Origin: Candidatus Nealsoniibacteriota bacterium
GTDB lineage: Bacteria; Patescibacteriota; Minisyncoccia; Minisyncoccales; GWA2-38-27
Direction: 5' to 3'
DNA length: 10,769 nt
NCBI GenBank assembly: GCA_003559065.1
Contig: PWMZ01000014.1
Location: 1-10,769 of the forward strand
This document shows positions 1,280-10,181 of the stretch, piece by piece; positions within the stretch are counted from its first letter, which is position 1, and the number at the start of each line of letters is the position of its first letter. A program made the translations under genes and the position numbers. The notes under the pieces were generated by a model. That model ran no database searches. It had not been told where the DNA came from and worked only from the letters and a program-made list of their open reading frames with translations.

Positions 1280-3454
1280 ATGAAACCGATTTCAATAACA
1301 TTAAAGAACTATAAAAGATATGGCGATACAGAAACAACTCTTGATTTGTCTGATAATAAAGTAAGAGTTATTTCTGGTAAAATGGGTGTGGGCAAAACAT
1401 CTTTTGTTGATGCTATTATCTGGGTTCTTTTTAACAAATCATTAACTTCCGTTGATGGTGTTGTAAATAGATTAACAAAGAAAAACTGTAAGGTAGAGTT
1501 TAACTTTATTGTAAATACAGATGAATATTCTGTAATACGATATCGTAAACATGATGAATATAAAAACAATGTTCTTCTCTTCAAGAATGGCAAAAACATT
1601 ACTGGTGCAGATACAAAGAAAACTCAGGAAGTCATAGAAGATATAGTTGGTATTTCTTATAGAGCCATGATTTCTTCTGTTATATTTTCAAGTGAAATAT
1701 ATATTTCTTTTCTTCGCTCAAAGGGATACGCAGAAAGACTTAAAATACTTGAAAATATTCTTAACTTAGGTATAGTAAACAAATGGCTGGATAGCACAAA
1801 GAAGTTAATGAAGCCTATCACAGAAAAAGTTGAAGAGTATGAAAGTAAAATAGATAAGATTGATTATGGTGTAGAGACAATAGAAAATAATATATCTGAT
1901 TATAAAGAAAAATCTAAAATAAAACTTCTTGAGTTTAAGAAAAGAAAGACTTTCTTAGAAGAGACTGTTGAAAGTCTTAATAAAGAAATAGAGGATTTAG
2001 ATAAAATAGATGTAAATACCGAAATAGAGAAAATAAAACAGTTTAACTCTATTAAGGAAAACAATGATTATTTAAACTCTAAAATAAAAGAAGAGGAAAA
2101 TAATCTTTATAATCTCAATGAAATTTTAGAAGAAATAACTACTCTTCGAAATAAGCAAGAAGTTATTGCTCGTGTTGATATTGACAAAGAAATCAGAAAC
2201 CAAAAAGAATACAATGATTTATTAGAAAAGAAAAAAGAAATAGAAAGACAGATAAAAGACTTAATGATTCAAAAAGTTGATGTTTCTGTTTTTGAAAGAG
2301 AAATAAATAAAGCAGAAAAGAACATTGAATCTTTAAGAAAAGATATATCTTCTATAGAACATGAGGCCTCTTGTCCTCTTTGTGGACAAGGAATAACACA
2401 GGAAAAGTCAAAAGAACTCGTATGTCTCAAAACAGAAGAGCTAAACAAGAATGTAAAATCTTTATCAGAAAACGAAGATAAACTCGAACAAGCAAATAAG
2501 AGTAATCTAGACTTAGAAGAAAAAATAAAGAACTTATATACTTACATTCCTGAACTGGAGGAAAAGTCTTTTCAGAGAAGCTTGAAGGAGTTAGAAGAGT
2601 TAAAAGAACAAAAAACCACAATAGGTTCTAAGGTAATAGAAAAAGAAAAAGAGTTTTCTCAAAAAGAAGAATGGAATGGTAAAACTCAGAGTAGATTAAA
2701 TAATCTAAAGCTTGAGTTAAGAGAAGAAGGAGAACAGCCATTTCATGACTTGGATTTCTTAAATGATTTAAGTGAAGAGATAACCGATAAGAAAGAACAA
2801 GTAAAAGAATATGAAAATGAACTGAAAAATATTTCAGAGAATGCAAAAAACGCATATGATAAGGAATATGTAGAAGAGCTACAGGAAAAGATTAAGAAGC
2901 TTAAAACTAGTAAGTCAAAGACAGAGACTTTCTTAAATAAGAAAAATGAGGAACTAGAATATTATAAGTTTTTTGCAAGTATGTTTGCAAACAAAGAAGG
3001 TGGAATAAAAAAAGAAGTTATTGGAAGAATGATATCTGCTTTCAATAAGAAGGTAAACTTTTACATTCCTTATTTTATGCCAGATGATAGAAGTAGTATT
3101 ACAGTTGAGTTTGATCAGAATCTAAAAGAAACAATTATGGATGGTGATGATGAAATTGAATACGAAAGCTTTTCATCTGGTGAAAAAACAGTGTTGGAAA
3201 TATCCGTAGCGTTTTCTTTGTTTATGTTAGCTAAAGAGTTCTTTTCAAGCTCTATAAGTTTTATTGTGTTTGATGAAATACTTGATGGAAATTTAGACGA
3301 TGAAGCAAGTGCAAAGGTTGCAAAAGTTGTGAATGATTTGGGGGAAAGCAACTCTGTTATGTTAATATCACATAGAAAAGATTTAAAAGAAAGTTTTGAT
3401 ACTCATATAGTTATTGAAAGAGATAAGCAGGGTTTTAGTTGTATAAAGCCCTGA
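1280..3454 (+). CDS. 46: gp46/SbcC/Rad50-like ATPase subunit of recombination endonuclease
   Basis: A 724-residue SMC-like ATPase, partner of the gp47-like nuclease. It binds DNA ends and uses ATP to control nuclease access during end resection and recombination-dependent replication. Motifs in order: N-terminal strand with Walker A GKMGVGKT (residues 33-40); Q-loop region near residues 120-150; long Glu/Lys-rich coiled coil (about 170-610) interrupted near its middle by the zinc hook CPLCG (C365, C368), which dimerises two molecules through one zinc; signature FSSGEKT (631-637); Walker B IVFDE (662-666); H-loop SHR (697-699). All ATPase motifs are intact. It is longer than T4 gp46 (560 aa) and shorter than bacterial SbcC (over 1000 aa), so only the coiled-coil length differs. 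The start at 1280 has AAGGA at 1270-1274. Its last 20 bases overlap the end of the opposite-strand gene. Confidence 0.94.
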   Translation: MKPISITLKNYKRYGDTETTLDLSDNKVRVISGKMGVGKTSFVDAIIWVLFNKSLTSVDGVVNRLTKKNCKVEFNFIVNTDEYSVIRYRKHDEYKNNVLLFKNGKNITGADTKKTQEVIEDIVGISYRAMISSVIFSSEIYISFLRSKGYAERLKILENILNLGIVNKWLDSTKKLMKPITEKVEEYESKIDKIDYGVETIENNISDYKEKSKIKLLEFKKRKTFLEETVESLNKEIEDLDKIDVNTEIEKIKQFNSIKENNDYLNSKIKEEENNLYNLNEILEEITTLRNKQEVIARVDIDKEIRNQKEYNDLLEKKKEIERQIKDLMIQKVDVSVFEREINKAEKNIESLRKDISSIEHEASCPLCGQGITQEKSKELVCLKTEELNKNVKSLSENEDKLEQANKSNLDLEEKIKNLYTYIPELEEKSFQRSLKELEELKEQKTTIGSKVIEKEKEFSQKEEWNGKTQSRLNNLKLELREEGEQPFHDLDFLNDLSEEITDKKEQVKEYENELKNISENAKNAYDKEYVEELQEKIKKLKTSKSKTETFLNKKNEELEYYKFFASMFANKEGGIKKEVIGRMISAFNKKVNFYIPYFMPDDRSSITVEFDQNLKETIMDGDDEIEYESFSSGEKTVLEISVAFSLFMLAKEFFSSSISFIVFDEILDGNLDDEASAKVAKVVNDLGESNSVMLISHRKDLKESFDTHIVIERDKQGFSCIKP

Positions 3455-4952
3455 GAACTCTTTTAACTGCTTCGTTTTGTTCTTTTGTTTCAAGTCCCAA
3501 GTCATCTTTGGTTTTTTCTTCTTCTTGTTCGGCTTTTTGAAGCATGTCTACTGCTTTCTTTTTTTCTTGTGCGGAACCTTTCATTAATTTCATATATTCT
3601 TCAGCACCAGATTTTCCTAATGGACCTTTGGCAATCTTCAACGCTTCTTTTGTTTTTCTTGGGTCTTCTTTTTCTTCTTCTCTAGTTGCTGGGTTATCAG
3701 CTAGTTCATTAAGTTTCTTGCCATAGTATCTAAGAATACGATTTTCTTGTTGGGTTTGTCTTTTTAGTTTCTCAAGTCTTTCTTGTTCTTTACCTTGCTT
3801 GGATTCAGAATCTTTTTTGTTTTTGGCTTCTATTCCTTCTTGACGAATTTTTTCCGCTTCTTCTGCTTTTCCTTGTTGTAGTAATGAAAGATACTCGTTT
3901 CTTTTACCTGAACCTAAATATTTTTCGATTGCATCTGCCGCCATTTTTTCTTTTACTTTTGACGAGGCTGAAGATGCTGCTTCTCCTGCTTTGGCAGCTC
4001 CGCTCTTCACCATTTCTGAGCCTTTAGCTGCTGCGCTTTTTAGAGCATCTCCAGTAACCTTTGCAGCTCTGCTTCCAGTGACTGCTCCAACGCCTTTCCC
4101 AATGGCCTTTCCTGCATCTCTTAGTCTCATTCCTGTTCTTTCTAGCCTTCCTGGCATATTACTTCTTTTGAATTTTGAGACTACATCTCCTACTTCTCTT
4201 CTTGCGTCGCTGGCCATTTTCTTAGCTGCTGTTGAAGATTTCATTGCAGAACTTCTAGTTGGATGAACATCATATTGTCTTTGTTTGTTCATTATTTTAG
4301 ATTTATAGCTACTAAGAAGTTTGTCTATTTTGCTTTTTGCGTTATCATATCTTGCTTGTTGTTCTTTAGTAGGGTTTTCAATACCTGAAAATTCTTGTTC
4401 TATTTCTTGAATCTTGCTTTCTTGATATTTTTCAAAATCACTTGCTACAGTTTTTGGAGGAGGAAAATCTTTAGTGTTTACCAAATCTTCACCTCTTTTT
4501 GAGGATGCTTCTTGTGACTTTTCTTTTTTTGGAGATTCTGGTTGTTCTTCATCATCTTCATCATCGTCTTTTTCTGGAGGAAAGCTTGGCGCTTCTGATG
4601 GCTCTTTAGGAGATTCAGAGTCCTTTTCTGCTTCTGGAGTTCCTTCTGCCTCAGGTTCTTCTTCAGGGGTTTCTCCTGACTTTACTTGCTCTACTTCTTT
4701 TTGCGAAGGGGATTTTTTCTCTAAAGTTTTTGCGGCTTTTCTTGTATCGCTTATTACTTTTTTAAGTTCTTTGTCAAAAGCCTCTGGTTCTTTTAGGTTT
4801 ATTCCAAATTCTTCAGCTTTAGATTTATCTCTACTGTTAGCTAGAATCCAAACAGAAACAAGTAGGTCTCTTTGTTTTTCTGTGTCTAGAAATTGGGTAA
4901 GCCCTCTGATGGACTTACCGTCTTTGTCTTTTCTGTCTTTATATTCAGACAT
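3435..4952 (-). CDS. Highly charged low-complexity protein of unknown function, 505 aa
   Basis: This is the only long gene on the minus strand, less AT-rich than its neighbours. Regions from the N terminus: a compact-looking segment (1-80) with the hydrophobic stretch LLVSVWILA; an acidic, proline-rich linker (about 90-150) containing EKDDDEDDEE (127-136); a Gln/Glu-rich coiled-coil-like part (170-225); a basic Arg/Lys part (230-280); an Ala/Gly/Lys region (280-345) resembling amphipathic-helix repeats; and a charged helical C terminus to 505. There is no signal peptide, membrane segment or catalytic motif. I do not recognise the family. Orientation opposite to the replication genes suggests a different expression class, perhaps a late structural, scaffold-like or internal head protein (inference only). 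The ATG at 4952 has only a weak upstream GGA. The frame is open upstream for another 18 codons to a TAA (5007-5009) and beyond it to an ATG with a good ribosome site, so the true N terminus is uncertain. Confidence 0.8.
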   Translation of the reverse strand: MSEYKDRKDKDGKSIRGLTQFLDTEKQRDLLVSVWILANSRDKSKAEEFGINLKEPEAFDKELKKVISDTRKAAKTLEKKSPSQKEVEQVKSGETPEEEPEAEGTPEAEKDSESPKEPSEAPSFPPEKDDDEDDEEQPESPKKEKSQEASSKRGEDLVNTKDFPPPKTVASDFEKYQESKIQEIEQEFSGIENPTKEQQARYDNAKSKIDKLLSSYKSKIMNKQRQYDVHPTRSSAMKSSTAAKKMASDARREVGDVVSKFKRSNMPGRLERTGMRLRDAGKAIGKGVGAVTGSRAAKVTGDALKSAAAKGSEMVKSGAAKAGEAASSASSKVKEKMAADAIEKYLGSGKRNEYLSLLQQGKAEEAEKIRQEGIEAKNKKDSESKQGKEQERLEKLKRQTQQENRILRYYGKKLNELADNPATREEEKEDPRKTKEALKIAKGPLGKSGAEEYMKLMKGSAQEKKKAVDMLQKAEQEEEKTKDDLGLETKEQNEAVKRVLRALYN

Positions 4953-5212: not shown

Positions 5213-6487
5213 TTGAGCTTTGTACAATTACATATTCACTCACACGTTGGTAGCTCTTTAGATGGAATAGCTTCATCAGAAGACTATGCACAAAAAGCAA
5301 AGTCATTAGGACACCCAGCACTAGCAATAACTGAACACGGTAAAATGTCTAGTATATATGAACATTATACTGCTTGTAAAAAACATGGAATAAAACCAAT
5401 CTTTGGCGTAGAGGCGTATGTTGCTGATGAACTCATTACTCTTGACGCAAAAGGTAAAAGAGAAAGAACAAAAGCATATCATATAAATCTTTATGCAAAA
5501 AATAAAATAGGCTATTCTAATCTATTAAAACTTAATTATTTATCTATGTCAAATGATGAACACTTTTATTATTTTAATCGAATTCTTTTAGAAGAAATAT
5601 ATGAACATAAAGAAGGGTTAATGATTACTTCTGGTTGTGCAAACTCTCCCATTAATTTTAGAATACGAGAAGGAAAACTAGACGAAGCAAAGAAAATATT
5701 CGATAAAATATATGAAGAGTTTGGAAACGATTTTTATGGAGAAATACAACTAAATGAGTTTTCAAAAGAAAATTCTGAAGATGGAATGCAGGAAATAATC
5801 AATTCTTATATTCTGAAATGGAGTAAAGAAAAAGGAATGGATGTAATAGTGGCAGGGGATGTTCATTATTTAAATCCAGGAGAAGGAAACATTCAAACTC
5901 TTTCTATTGCTATACGAAATAAGCAAACAATTAATAATATGAGTTTCGAGATTGAAAGCAAGAACTTGTATTATCACGATATAAAGGATTATGTAAAATT
6001 CAATGAAGAGTTTGGATATAATTATTCAGAAAGTGAAATAATTCAATGGGCAGAAAATACTGTTAAGTTTGCAGATAAAATAGAAGAGGATATCATAACA
6101 GAAAGAAATAGAGTTTATCTTCCGAAAGTTACAGAAGATGATGATAGAGAGATTGTTAAAATTGCTACAAGAAATTTAACAAAAAAGTTTGGAAAAGAAA
6201 ACTTCAATGAAATACCAGAAGAATACTCTAAGAGGCTTAAGTATGAATTAGAAATAATTATACGAAAAGGTTTTTCGAGCTATATGTTAGTTCTAGAAGA
6301 TGTATTTAATTTCGTTAAAAGAGAAGGATTATATTATGGTGTTGCAAGAGGTTCGGCGGGTGGTAGCTTAGTAGCTTATGCGCTTGGAATAACTTCTTTA
6401 GATCCAATTCGTTTTGGATTATTGTTTGAGAGATTTCTTTCAGAACAAAGAACTCCTGATTATGTATATAACTATTTTGGAGAATAG
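5213..6487 (+). CDS. dnaE: DNA polymerase III alpha (family C), N-terminal fragment: PHP domain and first part of palm
   Basis: A 424-residue protein corresponding to the first third of a DnaE replicase. PHP domain (about 1-270): HIH (7-9), D17, TEHG (40-43), GVEAYV (65-70), H90, SGC (140-142) and GDVH (215-218). By analogy with PHP enzymes that keep their metal site, the expected ligands H7, H9, D17, H42, E67, H90, C142, D216 and H218 all seem present, so a proofreading-type nuclease activity is possible. The palm begins around 300, with the conserved block RGSAGGSLVAYALGI (379-393) and LLFERFL (403-409). A normal DnaE continues within about ten residues to PDIDIDF, the catalytic aspartates. 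Here the frame reads EQRTPD, then an unrelated YVYNYFGE and TAG-TAA. The fragment therefore cannot polymerise alone. The missing aspartates are encoded at 9312-10181. It is driven by a consensus promoter at 5164 and starts at TTG. Confidence 0.92.
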   Translation: MSFVQLHIHSHVGSSLDGIASSEDYAQKAKSLGHPALAITEHGKMSSIYEHYTACKKHGIKPIFGVEAYVADELITLDAKGKRERTKAYHINLYAKNKIGYSNLLKLNYLSMSNDEHFYYFNRILLEEIYEHKEGLMITSGCANSPINFRIREGKLDEAKKIFDKIYEEFGNDFYGEIQLNEFSKENSEDGMQEIINSYILKWSKEKGMDVIVAGDVHYLNPGEGNIQTLSIAIRNKQTINNMSFEIESKNLYYHDIKDYVKFNEEFGYNYSESEIIQWAENTVKFADKIEEDIITERNRVYLPKVTEDDDREIVKIATRNLTKKFGKENFNEIPEEYSKRLKYELEIIIRKGFSSYMLVLEDVFNFVKREGLYYGVARGSAGGSLVAYALGITSLDPIRFGLLFERFLSEQRTPDYVYNYFGE

Positions 6488-6500
6488 TAAAGCTATAGAT

Positions 6501-8243
6501 ATGAATATAAAAATAACCGAAGAGATTAAAAAAAACTATAAAATAAAAACGCTAAAATCTTTTGTAAATACATATGTGAAAAGAAAAGATGTAAAAAAAA
6601 TATCAGAAGAAATGGGATTTGAAAATTTATCTGAATTTCTATATTTTATAGTAAATGATTTAAATGAAAAGCCATCCTGCAAAGAATGTGGGAAAGAAGT
6701 TTCTTTTGATAAAATTTCAACAGGTTATAGAGAATTTTGTTCTGTAAAATGCGCTAGAAATAACGAAAAAACAAAAGAAAAAACAAAACAAACTAATTTA
6801 GAAAAATATGGGGTAGAAACCCCCCTTCAAAATGAAGAGGTAAAACAAAAAATAAAAAAAACAAATTTAGAAAGATATGGGGTTGAAAATCCTTCACAAA
6901 ATGAAGAGGTAAAAGAAAAAAAGAAACAAGCTACTGATTATATCTTAATATCTAAAAAATATAAAAAAACTAACTTAGAAAGGTATGGAGTGGAATATTA
7001 CTTTCAAAGTAAGGAGTTTAAAGAAAATAATAATTATTCTATTACAGAAGAAGTAAAAGAAAAAATAAAACAAACTAATTTAGAAAGATATGGGGTTGAA
7101 TGTTCTTTACAAAATGAAGAAGTAAAACAAAAAATAAAAAAAACAAATTTAGAAAGATATGGGGTAGAAAATCCTTCACAAAACAAAGAAGTAAGAGAAA
7201 AAGTAAGAAACACTACTTTGAAAAACTTTGGGGTTGAATGTGGTTTCTTGACGGAAGAGTCAATAAAAAAAAGAAAAAAAGAAGATTATAATTCTATAGT
7301 AAACAATAGAAAAGAATATGTAGTTCCACTTTTTGAAGAGAGCGAATATAAGGGAAGCGGTTATGAAAATGAATATTTTTGGAAGTGTGTGAAGTGTGGA
7401 AATGTTTTTAAAAGTCATGTTTTTTCTAGTAGGATTCCTAGGTGTTTTAAGTGTTATCCCACTATTATAACAACATCTTCTTCTGAAAAAGAAATGATTG
7501 ATTTTATAAAAGGTTTGGGGTTTGCGGTTAGAAAGAAAAGATATAAAAAATTTGAAATTGATGCTTTAATAGAAGAAAAAAATATTGGTTTTGAAATGAA
7601 TGGTTTATATTGGCATAGTGAAATAGGAGGGAAGAAAGATAGAAATTATCATATAAATAAAACCTTATTTTTTAATGAATTAGGTTATAAGATTTTTCAT
7701 ATTTTTGAAAATGAGTGGTTATATAAAAAAGATATAGTTAAATCTATTATAAAAAATAAATTAGGAATAATAGATGATAAAATATTTGCTAGAAAATGCA
7801 AATTAAAAAAAGTTTCAAGTAAAGATTTAAAAAAATTCTACGATAAAAATCATATACAAGGACATATAAAATCTTCCGTTAATTTAGCTTTATTTTATAA
7901 TAATGAAATAGTATGTGCTTTAAGTATTTCTAAATCTAGGTTTGAAAAAAATGCTTTTGAAATAATAAGATTTGCTAATAAACTAAATACTTCTGTGGTT
8001 GGTGGTTTTTCTAAATTGTTAAAATATTATCTTAATAATTTTAGCTTTGATAGATTAATAACATATTCAGATAAAAGGTTTTTTGATGGAAGTATATATT
8101 TAAGAAATGGTTTTGTTTTTGATAAATTTACAAAACCTAATTATTTTTATATGTATAAATACAAAGATACGACGAACAGAATGAAGTTTCAAAAACACAA
8201 ACTAAAAAAAACCTTGGATGTTTTTAATGAAAATTTAACTTAA
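6501..8243 (+). CDS. Hef-like homing endonuclease (PDDEXK/Vsr-like fold), last ~25 residues cut off by a TAA
   Basis: A 580-residue free-standing homing endonuclease of the Hef type found in T4-like phages. It would cut an allele lacking the insertion so that its own gene is copied in by repair. Seen in order: N-terminal helical part; zinc-binding set C60/C63 and C80/C84; six 23-residue TNLERYGVE repeats (about 98-248); a second zinc ribbon C296/C299/C315/C318; nuclease core with D354 (FEIDALI) and E365 in FEMNGLYWH, matching the ExN variant of PDDEXK sites; a C-terminal domain with NHIQGH and SVVGGFSKL, common in Hef proteins. ATG 6501 was chosen because 6462 or 6414 would run inside the polymerase fragment; GGAG at 6479-6482 is rather far from 6501, so 6462 remains possible. 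The frame ends NENLT-TAA, but the following bases continue in frame with a typical Hef tail. It is probably inserted into, or has broken, the polymerase gene. Confidence 0.88.
   Translation: MNIKITEEIKKNYKIKTLKSFVNTYVKRKDVKKISEEMGFENLSEFLYFIVNDLNEKPSCKECGKEVSFDKISTGYREFCSVKCARNNEKTKEKTKQTNLEKYGVETPLQNEEVKQKIKKTNLERYGVENPSQNEEVKEKKKQATDYILISKKYKKTNLERYGVEYYFQSKEFKENNNYSITEEVKEKIKQTNLERYGVECSLQNEEVKQKIKKTNLERYGVENPSQNKEVREKVRNTTLKNFGVECGFLTEESIKKRKKEDYNSIVNNRKEYVVPLFEESEYKGSGYENEYFWKCVKCGNVFKSHVFSSRIPRCFKCYPTIITTSSSEKEMIDFIKGLGFAVRKKRYKKFEIDALIEEKNIGFEMNGLYWHSEIGGKKDRNYHINKTLFFNELGYKIFHIFENEWLYKKDIVKSIIKNKLGIIDDKIFARKCKLKKVSSKDLKKFYDKNHIQGHIKSSVNLALFYNNEIVCALSISKSRFEKNAFEIIRFANKLNTSVVGGFSKLLKYYLNNFSFDRLITYSDKRFFDGSIYLRNGFVFDKFTKPNYFYMYKYKDTTNRMKFQKHKLKKTLDVFNENLT
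6786..7245 (+). repeat. Six coding repeats (TNLERYGVE, period 69 bases) within the homing endonuclease
   Basis: The codons for TNLE-(K/R)-YGVE recur starting at 6792, 6861, 6969, 7074, 7143 and 7212; the last copy is degenerate (TTLKNFGVE). Spacing is 69 bases for three intervals, 108 and 105 for the others. Copies 1-2 and 4-5 are the same distance apart (282 bases) and almost identical in DNA, so a block of about 280 bases appears to have been duplicated recently. In protein terms these are small DNA-binding repeat modules typical of Hef proteins. Confidence 0.85.
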
Positions 8244-8318
8244 TGGCAGAATATGCAGATAAATGGTTATGATAGAATTTGGGATTGCGGTAATTCTAGA
8301 TTTATCTTTAAAAAATAA
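8244..8318 (+). pseudogene. Detached in-frame C-terminal tail of the Hef-like endonuclease
   Basis: Directly after the TAA at 8241-8243 the same frame reads WQNMQINGYDRIWDCGN, then SRFIFKK and TAA (8316-8318). The NGYDRIWDCG block is, from memory of the family, how Hef proteins normally end (…NLTEWQNMQLNGYDRIWDCG…). A GAA to TAA change (one base) would explain the stop. The gene is therefore probably truncated by 25 residues, unless the stop is read through. Bases 8319-8334 hold only the ribosome site of the next gene. Confidence 0.75.
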
Positions 8319-8334
8319 TAAAAGGAATTGAATA

Positions 8335-8784
8335 ATGGAATACGATAGCGCGGCAGACACATTAAGACATATTAAAAGAGTAAATACATTACTTATAAAA
8401 TTTTCAAAGGAATTGATGGATAGAGCTATTTGCCACGATAATAGCAAATTGAACTCACCAGAAAAAGAACTGTTTGATATTTACACTCCTAAGTTAAAAG
8501 ATTGCACTTATGGAAGTGATGAGTATAAAGAGTATTTGAAAGAGCTTCAAGTAGCTTTAGAGCATCATTATAAAGAGAACTCTCACCATCCAGAATTCTA
8601 CAATAACGGTGTAAATGGAATGGATTTGTTTGATTTGGTTGAAATGTTTTTAGATTGGAAGGCTGCATCCGAAAGACATGCCGATGGGGATATTTTCAAG
8701 TCTATCGATATAAATAAAGAAAGGTTTCAGCTTAGCGAACAGTTAGTTGATATTTTAAAAAATACAGCTAGGATATATTTATGA
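8335..8784 (+). CDS. DUF5662-like protein, 149 aa
   Basis: A 149-residue mostly helical protein with the pattern I associate with the DUF5662 family of phage and bacterial proteins: H12 in the first helix, HDNSK (34-38), YGS-EY (59-64), HH (77-78), HHPE (84-87), MDLFDLVEMFLDW (96-108), R114 and a C-terminal SEQL..ILKNT. The conserved His/Asp residues resemble an HD-type metal site and suggest a hydrolase fold, but no activity is established, so I assign none. ATG 8335 has AAAGGA at 8320-8325. Its stop overlaps the next start (ATGA at 8781-8784). It sits between the two polymerase fragments, so it may have arrived with the homing endonuclease or been moved there with its neighbours. Confidence 0.75.
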   Translation: MEYDSAADTLRHIKRVNTLLIKFSKELMDRAICHDNSKLNSPEKELFDIYTPKLKDCTYGSDEYKEYLKELQVALEHHYKENSHHPEFYNNGVNGMDLFDLVEMFLDWKAASERHADGDIFKSIDINKERFQLSEQLVDILKNTARIYL

Positions 8785-9008
8785 ATTTTATATCAGTAGG
8801 AAAAGAAGAAGACTCTTTACTAATAAATATTGAAGCTATAGTTGCAGTAACTTCGGTATACGGCGATGATGCTTGGAGAAGGTATGCTATTGTTTTAAAC
8901 AATGGAGAAAAGTTTGAGTTTTATGAAGGAAGAAGTGCGGATTCTAAATACATGCCGAGAAAAGTGTTTCTGCAAAAGCTGAGAAAATTCGCAAACATTA
9001 ATGGTTGA
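8781..9008 (+). CDS. Small protein of unknown function, 75 aa
   Basis: A 75-residue protein, MNFISVGKEEDSLLINIEAI..., with alternating strands and a turn at LNNGEKFEFYEG. It looks like a small all-beta fold with a helical, basic C terminus (MPRKVFLQKLRKFAN). Short proteins of the type 'INIEAIVAV…V.LNNGE' are common in phages, but I cannot name a family. It is coupled to the preceding gene by an ATGA overlap. Its last codons overlap the -35 box of the promoter at 9005. Confidence 0.65.
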   Translation: MNFISVGKEEDSLLINIEAIVAVTSVYGDDAWRRYAIVLNNGEKFEFYEGRSADSKYMPRKVFLQKLRKFANING

Positions 9009-9033
9009 CAAATATATTTAAAGAAGGTATAAT
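9005..9033 (+). promoter_or_regulatory. Perfect consensus sigma70 promoter overlapping a gene start
   Basis: TTGACA (9005-9010), 17-base spacer, TATAAT (9028-9033). The -35 box contains the TGA stop (9006-9008) of the preceding gene, and the -10 box ends two bases before the ATG at 9036. A start near 9040 would put the ATG upstream of the transcript, so this promoter would serve the polymerase fragment at 9312 and the genes after it, leaving about 270 leader bases. The gene at 9036 would then need read-through from upstream, or leaderless initiation. Confidence 0.8.
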
Positions 9034-9035
9034 AA

Positions 9036-9305
9036 ATGAGAGCATGGAACAGACGAGGAAGGTATATCACGGTTGAGTTAGAAACTGAAATTGACTTAGC
9101 TGATTATATAGATGATATAGTTGATTTATATAATAACGATAAAGAGTTTAAAAGTGATTTTGATGCATCTATTCCAGATGAGCCAGATGAAACAATAGAA
9201 AGTTTTATTCGCAGAGCAAAAGAAATCAGAAAAGATTCTTTGCTTTGGGAAAGAGTAAAGTATGAATTGACAGAAATAATTAAAGATGATTATATTGTGG
9301 TGTAG
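9036..9305 (+). CDS. Small acidic protein of unknown function, 89 aa
   Basis: An 89-residue acidic protein: MRAWNRRGRYITVELETEI, then helices rich in Asp/Glu (ADYIDDIVDLY, PDEPDETIESF) and a C-terminal ELTEIIKDDYIVV. No family recognised. AGAAGG at 9022-9027 is a reasonable ribosome site but lies inside the spacer of the promoter at 9005-9033. Its TAG stop (9303-9305) is followed, two codons later in the same frame, by the ATG of the second polymerase fragment, so the two proteins are separated only by a single stop. I see nothing polymerase-like in this protein. Confidence 0.65.
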   Translation: MRAWNRRGRYITVELETEIDLADYIDDIVDLYNNDKEFKSDFDASIPDEPDETIESFIRRAKEIRKDSLLWERVKYELTEIIKDDYIVV

Positions 9306-9311
9306 GGGATT

Positions 9312-10181
9312 ATGAATTTTAAAGAAATAAAAAGTTTGTGCGATGAAAAGATTAAGGAATATCCAGATTATGTCGAAAGGTATAAAAAGGAAATAACCGC
9401 TCTAAAACGATTTCATAATAACGACAGAAATATTTATGAAGAGTTTGAACAAAACAAAGATAGAATAGACAATCGATATGTTCTTCCTTTTCTGCTTGGT
9501 TTTACAAAAACTGTAGACTTATCAAAAGATTTAGATATGATACAAGTAAAGCCTGGCGCATCAGGTGGAATTGATATAGATACAGATCTTTCTCCAGAAG
9601 CAAAAGAAAAAGTAACTGAATATTTAAGAAATAAGTTTGGAGAGGATAGGGTTATTTCTGTCGGAACTTATACAAAGATGGGTGTAGCTTCTGCCGCAAA
9701 AGATTTAATGAGAATATATGAAGTTCCTTTTAAAGAAAGTAACTCTCTTACAGGTGAGTTAAACTCTCAAGAAACTTGGGATGAAAATCTAGAGAGAATT
9801 AAATTCTCAAGATCTGATTTATACTCTATTTATGAAAAGTATAAAGACATTTTAGATTTAGTTCCTTACTTTGTTAATAAGGTGCGCCAAGGAGGCAAAC
9901 ATGCCGGGGGCGTGGCAGTATTAGACAGGCCTGTGTATGAACTTATTCCAGTTGATAAAGTAAGCGGCAATTTAGTAACTGCTTTTCCTGAAAGTGGGCA
10001 GGTTCAAACACTTGATGAAGTTGGTATAGTAAAATTTGACATACTGGGTATTTCTATATTAGATGTTGTTGCGAATACTATAAATAGTATAAATGAAAAA
10101 ATGTATATGATTGAAGATGATGATGGATTGACGAAAATAGTTCCACAGAGTTATATTGACGAAAAAATAAAGGAGATTTAA
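9312..10181 (+). CDS. dnaE: DNA polymerase III alpha (family C), central fragment with the palm catalytic residues
   Basis: A 289-residue protein that supplies what the fragment at 5213 lacks. Residues 1-80 are an unrecognised helical lead-in. GIDIDTD (86-92) corresponds to the DnaE PDIDIDF motif with the two catalytic aspartates (D88, D90). EDRVISVGTYTKMGVASAAKD (111-131) matches the following 'V..I.TFGT..AK..VRD' block, GKHAGGVAVL (195-204) the 'HAAGVVI' block, and KFDILGIS (241-248) the 'KFDFLGL' block with the third carboxylate (D243). The frame stops about 40 residues later, before the fingers (GVFQLES block), the beta-clamp-binding and OB domains of a normal DnaE of over 1000 residues. 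Those must lie elsewhere or be absent. The ATG at 9312 has AGGGGA at 9304-9309, unusually close. It is probably transcribed from 9005-9033. Assembly in trans with the N-terminal fragment is the simplest functional model, but it is inference. Confidence 0.88.
   Translation: MNFKEIKSLCDEKIKEYPDYVERYKKEITALKRFHNNDRNIYEEFEQNKDRIDNRYVLPFLLGFTKTVDLSKDLDMIQVKPGASGGIDIDTDLSPEAKEKVTEYLRNKFGEDRVISVGTYTKMGVASAAKDLMRIYEVPFKESNSLTGELNSQETWDENLERIKFSRSDLYSIYEKYKDILDLVPYFVNKVRQGGKHAGGVAVLDRPVYELIPVDKVSGNLVTAFPESGQVQTLDEVGIVKFDILGISILDVVANTINSINEKMYMIEDDDGLTKIVPQSYIDEKIKEI

Follow-up and report, generated by a model that had tools for sequence, protein, structure and literature searches.

The contig PWMZ01000014.1 (C21), whose 10,769 bases make up the window analyzed here, carries a family C DNA polymerase (DnaE) broken within its palm, so that the active site is divided between two genes. 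The upstream gene (frag1, 5213-6487) encodes the PHP domain and the nucleotide-binding half of the palm. The downstream gene (frag2, 9312-10181) encodes the metal-binding half, headed by 86 residues that resemble, in sequence, an extension found on split DnaE proteins of Patescibacteria. That extension in turn looks like a diverged copy of a palm half and will be called the pseudo-palm. On balance we favor, by a modest degree of belief, the explanation that a homing element fractured the polymerase of a phage or other mobile replicon, and that the halves reassemble without splicing, aided by the pseudo-palm. That the halves reassemble and are active, what the extension does, and that the window derives from a mobile replicon are points that we infer rather than demonstrate directly.

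The divided palm

5213..6460, + strand: native part of frag1, comprising the PHP domain plus the NTP-binding half of the DnaE palm (the half with the GS loop) and closing at RTPD
6338..6394, + strand: GS motif GVARGSAGGSLVAYALGIT, frag1 residues 376-394
6461..6487, + strand: frag1 tail YVYNYFGE (8 residues) and stop, non-DnaE sequence
9312..9569, + strand: N-terminal extension of frag2 (86 aa), related to the pseudo-palm that extends split DnaE in Patescibacteria
9570..10181, + strand: Mg-binding palm half of frag2, with D88, D90 and D243; stops before the fingers

Frag1 opens with TTG, preceded by aaaaggag, and has the PHP domain (PF02811, 4.9e-35) followed by a Pol III alpha palm with its GS loop, as expected of a family C polymerase. 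The loop presumably binds nucleotide, as it does in Pol III alpha generally. The palm match covers positions 5-99 of PF07733 (2e-30) and stops at residue 414; phage matches likewise end at query residue 413-416 in 35 of the 40 records listed. Among 60 related genomes, the top five non-self matches fall in bacterial DnaE frames, 1062-1079 aa long, at 37-39% identity.

Frag2 takes up the same family at positions 103-260 (7.9e-26). The two fragments are thus complementary on PF07733, and their junction is the PDxDxD motif that holds the catalytic DxD. IDIDTD occupies residues 87-92 of frag2 and KFDILG begins at 241; in a 42-row alignment D88, D90, D92, G238 and K241 are invariant and D243 nearly so, so that both the DxD and the third palm carboxylate of the family are present. 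A fold search with two models recovers the palm part clearly and gives no clear assignment for the extension.

The original prediction, which had placed the two fragments in separate open reading frames at these positions with the active site divided and the motifs conserved in both, is borne out on each count. Its statement that frag1 stops short of the catalytic aspartates needs amending: the break does fall at the DxD, but frag1 ends in PD, and an equivalent of D88 is present in both pieces.

The missing part of the polymerase

Frag2 ends shortly past the third carboxylate, and everything from the fingers onward is missing. The window lacks the fingers, the clamp-binding part and the OB part, as had been noted. 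Because the protein ends before the fingers, a third piece should be encoded elsewhere, and the window DnaE is probably in three or more pieces, in agreement with the earlier suggestion. The follow-up proposed there, a search for the remaining parts, yielded no fingers/OB piece in the 466 kb bin (G000, 71 contigs) with PF17657 and a seven-row C-terminal profile, the latter used without a positive control. This is weak evidence, because the bin is 78% complete and the host DnaE was likewise not found in it.

The absence of a third piece is one of the observations that could signal a polymerase in decay, in which insertion broke the gene, the fragments are open merely because the event was recent, and the phage relies on another polymerase. 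An in-frame stop in the endonuclease gene between the halves and the very long frag1 branch described below point the same way. We regard decay as rather unlikely, since catalytic residues are retained in both halves, frag2 starts independently and carries an extension with relatives on other split DnaE proteins, and by our estimate an open reading frame of 289 codons is unlikely to stay open by chance at ~30% GC. The same layout also accounts for the only PF07733 matches of two near-complete bacterial genomes.

The element between the halves

6501..8243, + strand: homing endonuclease, Hef-like (of the Vsr/MTES_1575 type), bearing DUF7487 repeats; start probably the ATG at 6501
8244..8315, + strand: in-frame rest of the endonuclease's conserved C-terminal tail, past an in-frame TAA (compare the CP81 hef-9 tail)
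8335..8784, + strand: DUF5662 protein (PF18907, 4.1e-38)
8781..9008, + strand: 75 aa open reading frame without a family match
9036..9305, + strand: 89 aa open reading frame without a convincing family match

An endonuclease gene thus lies amid two halves that have their own start codons, as in genes fractured by a homing endonuclease such as nrdA of phage Aeh1; three further genes also separate frag1 and frag2. The endonuclease matches phrog_3339 (homing endonuclease, 5.8e-115), PF24308 and, below the curated cut-off, PF18741. It is 43-45% identical to Campylobacter phage genes in the 20 records listed, where the annotation is mostly that of a homing or Hef-like endonuclease. The enzyme may be decaying, to judge from the in-frame TAA (8241-8315), past which the reading frame still encodes the conserved tail seen in CP81 hef-9.

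The placement of the endonuclease also invites the thought of a single dnaE gene interrupted by an intron (or intein) of ~3.1 kb that includes it. Splicing at RTPD|IDTD would join the flanking sequences into the canonical PDIDTD. Nevertheless, scanning the window with Rfam up to E 10 gave three matches, at E 1.1 to 3.4, none of them an intron, and the intron was rejected on this ground as the principal explanation. No Pfam intein family was found in frag1 or frag2, where only 8 residues follow RTPD; the earlier remark that an intein is absent therefore stands. The 86 codons before IDID are open, with a mean pLDDT of at least 86 in six of the first seven 10-residue blocks of the model, and are related to the extensions of independently initiated proteins. 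Moreover, three unrelated genes would have to lie within the intron. We consider splicing very improbable.

The pseudo-palm and other palm splits

The resemblance of the frag2 head to the extension of split Patescibacteria DnaE had escaped the original prediction. PF07733 was surveyed in 247 genomes of the order, with complete counts for each genome. The family was matched in 231 of them and more than once in seven, including palm splits in the window's own genome and in two others, G128 (KR11_0.1_MetaG.mb.14) and G200 (KR13_S3.mb.134), names given by matching loci in public Patescibacteria metagenome-assembled genomes. The multiple matches of G001 and G008 are breaks at contig edges, and that of G173 is probably the same, judged from coordinates. 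In G182 (L065, 3-722 and 641-3517) an intein-like insert, recognized by eye, lies in the GPGRGS loop across two overlapping frames, and the palm is not split. A single partial match in each of G158, G121, G085, G212, G232 and G233 is known from coordinates only and could hide a split. In the window's own bin, frag1 and frag2 are the sole matches apart from one below the cut-off (G000:C41), which sits in an open reading frame of unrelated appearance.

Extension profiles added one further bacterium. In 383 genomes of the class, a three-row profile (A1) had 20 hits at E 1e-3, 3 strong and 17 weak. The strong ones are the window and G128, both members of the profile, and the new case G305, which has the full split layout as read at the locus. 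Fifteen of the 17 weak matches lie in open frames of >1000 aa, as expected of intact DnaE; A1 includes the first PDxDxD residues, so the weak scores are partly driven by the motif, which separate tests of the extension excluded. A five-row profile (A8) run over the order found 3 of 247 genomes, all three profile members, and a two-row profile (A2) found nothing at E 1e-6 in 379 genomes of the phylum and missed the window too.

A viral contig with a palm-split DnaE (L166) was found by another query, so that the split recurs in one virus-derived contig as well as in the genomes of three bacteria. The C half of L166 (4227-4673) has two frame breaks, which may reflect sequencing error or decay. 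Extension profiles gave no confirmed match in IMG/VR, although L166 belongs to that collection; distant cases are therefore missed. No close relatives were found of frag1 and frag2 in IMG/VR, or of frag2 in GTDB contigs, and a tblastn search of phages with the window extension alone returned three records at E 8, the level of chance.

The three bacterial loci share one anatomy. The N-half frames (409 aa in G200, 415 aa in G128 and 410 aa in G305) close with FERFL and then a tail of 16-17 residues, respectively SISEKYFVTNEDFGIL, AIQEKFYITKKDFGIHD and SVKETYFLNKEDFGIHD. The C halves begin with an extension of 85-86 aa followed by PDIDLDF, and at each of the two junctions neighboring genes overlap. 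LAGLIDADG families are matched by the endonucleases of G200 and G305, to which the G128 endonuclease is 53-55% identical. Identity between genomes is 59-70% for the N half, 47-56% for the tail, 53-55% for the endonuclease, 48-58% for the extension and 68-71% for the metal-binding half. The C halves of G200 and G305 extend through the remainder of DnaE, whereas that of G128 reaches the contig end, with the fingers on another contig. Because G128 is placed within its own family in the tree and G200 and G305 lie among other Patescibacteria, the split, to judge from these sequences, probably arose or arrived more than once.

A possible route to a two-chain polymerase

On the explanation by fracture, the element would have inserted at the conserved FERFL...PDxDxD site. 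The upstream half would have acquired a short new tail in the process, and the downstream half an independent start along with the 86 aa extension. The extension may derive from a palm segment like the one immediately upstream, with loss of the GRGS loop. The halves would be translated separately and reassemble non-covalently, so that the nucleotide-binding loop would come from frag1 and the aspartates from frag2. The extension could act as a placeholder that keeps the metal-binding half folded while offering a docking surface; docking, chaperoning or competition with the real palm half are possible roles for the pseudo-palm.

A broader proposal, which we put forward tentatively, is that a selfish endonuclease gene can occupy the active site of an essential polymerase by a route beyond introns and inteins, bringing with it an adaptor, a degenerate copy of the adjacent palm half, that lets the severed enzyme fold and restore its active site from two chains. 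One adaptor family (the window, G128, G200, G305 and L166) would then serve bacteria and phages, whether paired with different endonucleases or with no endonuclease at all, and some bacteria would replicate their chromosome with a two-chain DnaE. If so, a replicative polymerase tolerates separation of the nucleotide-binding loop from the catalytic aspartates, and a homing element can supply its own repair part at the protein level. Both points can be tested directly with the whole halves of G200 and G305, and the adaptor might represent a general principle of two-chain polymerases. In reduced genomes, DnaE in pieces may be miscalled as missing or pseudogenized.

Comparison with known systems

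In the systems described in PMC2988022, mobE divides nrdA of phage Aeh1 and mobA divides gene 60 of T4; the paper also reports non-covalent reassembly after endonuclease fracture for Aeh1 nrdA and for gene 43 of phage 25. The comparison with the nrdA and gene 43 splits drawn in the original prediction is apt. As in Aeh1 nrdA and T4 gene 60, which work without splicing, a free-standing homing endonuclease sits amid separately translated halves of an essential enzyme. Unlike them, the enzyme here is DnaE, cut through the palm; the downstream half bears an apparent diverged copy of the neighboring palm segment; two endonuclease families are involved (Hef-like in the window, LAGLIDADG in Patescibacteria); and three cases are in bacterial genomes. 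Crona and coworkers reportedly dealt with nrdA tails in 2011.

In cyanobacteria the split DnaE is joined by an intein, and other fractured genes with split inteins have endonuclease genes between their halves. The window is similar in having DnaE in two genes, and those fractured genes are similar in the position of the endonuclease. In contrast to the cyanobacterial enzyme, no intein was recognized in the window fragments, nor in the three C halves from Patescibacteria over their first ~196 residues.

The palm breakpoint itself is not new, because Iyer et al. 2021 (PMC7824862) report that group 2.2 jumbo phages have their Pol III alpha split into NTP-binding and Mg-binding proteins, the palm being broken between these halves as in the window. 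DnaE is broken at the same palm place in Cellulophaga phage phiST (L020, 4359-5936/5929-7959) and Bacteroides phage BS-TP1 (L021, 2848-4578/5818-7524). The earlier view that such a break lacks precedent is thus not supported. The C halves of phiST and BS-TP1, like frag2, begin their own frames shortly upstream of PDxDxD; in contrast to frag2, no pseudo-palm was seen on them, and the N halves carry other tails that are intein-like by eye. The BS-TP1 tail matches PF14890 at 8.3e-4, below the curated cut-off, and the phiST tail has no intein match; a Dda-like helicase gene lies between the BS-TP1 halves. The pseudo-palm is the new element, its absence from print having been weakly tested by a literature search that was not aimed at duplicated palm segments.

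The published division of labor raises the question of whether the window encodes an accessory polymerase of the jumbo-phage type, complete without fingers and standing beside a family B polymerase. Frag2 does stop directly after the palm, and SbcD/SbcC-like genes adjoin the split DnaE. Frag1 also matches phrog_11127 (171 positions) up to position 170 (7.7e-5), a family that we guess to be of the jumbo-phage split type, the likeness being judged by the published description. The same frag1, however, matches phrog_405, a DNA polymerase family of 1190 positions, at 4e-113 and has a PHP domain, whereas the published type is, as described in PMC7824862, minimal and without other Pol III domains; the C halves of G200 and G305, moreover, continue through DnaE. 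An accessory enzyme of this kind seems decidedly unlikely.

Origin of the window

It seems likely that the window is a phage or similar replicon co-binned with a bacterium. Its tetranucleotide usage correlates at 0.31-0.55 with seven other usable stretches of the bin, five of which correlate with one another at 0.74-0.91; C2 and C60 stand apart as well. In a tree of N halves (53 rows, 47 of them different; L004, L007, L020 and L021 not included) frag1 lies outside a clade of 20 Patescibacteria rows (support 98/92). It forms a long branch, of 3.07 changes per column, paired with another long branch, so that its exact position is unsure. An open reading frame of 505 aa on the minus strand (3435-4952) has many charged residues and no PHROG match.

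Breaks elsewhere in DnaE were also seen. In phage MMB025 (L023, 4681-6891/8108-9046) the break comes after the palm and an endonuclease gene separates the parts, and in phage vB_BpsS-140 (L022, 5830-6927/6885-9443) it lies between PHP and palm. According to a 2025 preprint (PMC12363816), endonuclease sequences often split the DNA polymerase genes of Jug phages. What looks like a separate, ordinary intein is present in the C halves of both G200 and G305; by eye, the intein-like inserts of G200, G305 and G137 occur (L064, L082 and L043, respectively) at a common VFQLE|C site, just past the palm and near the position at which frag2 of the window ends.
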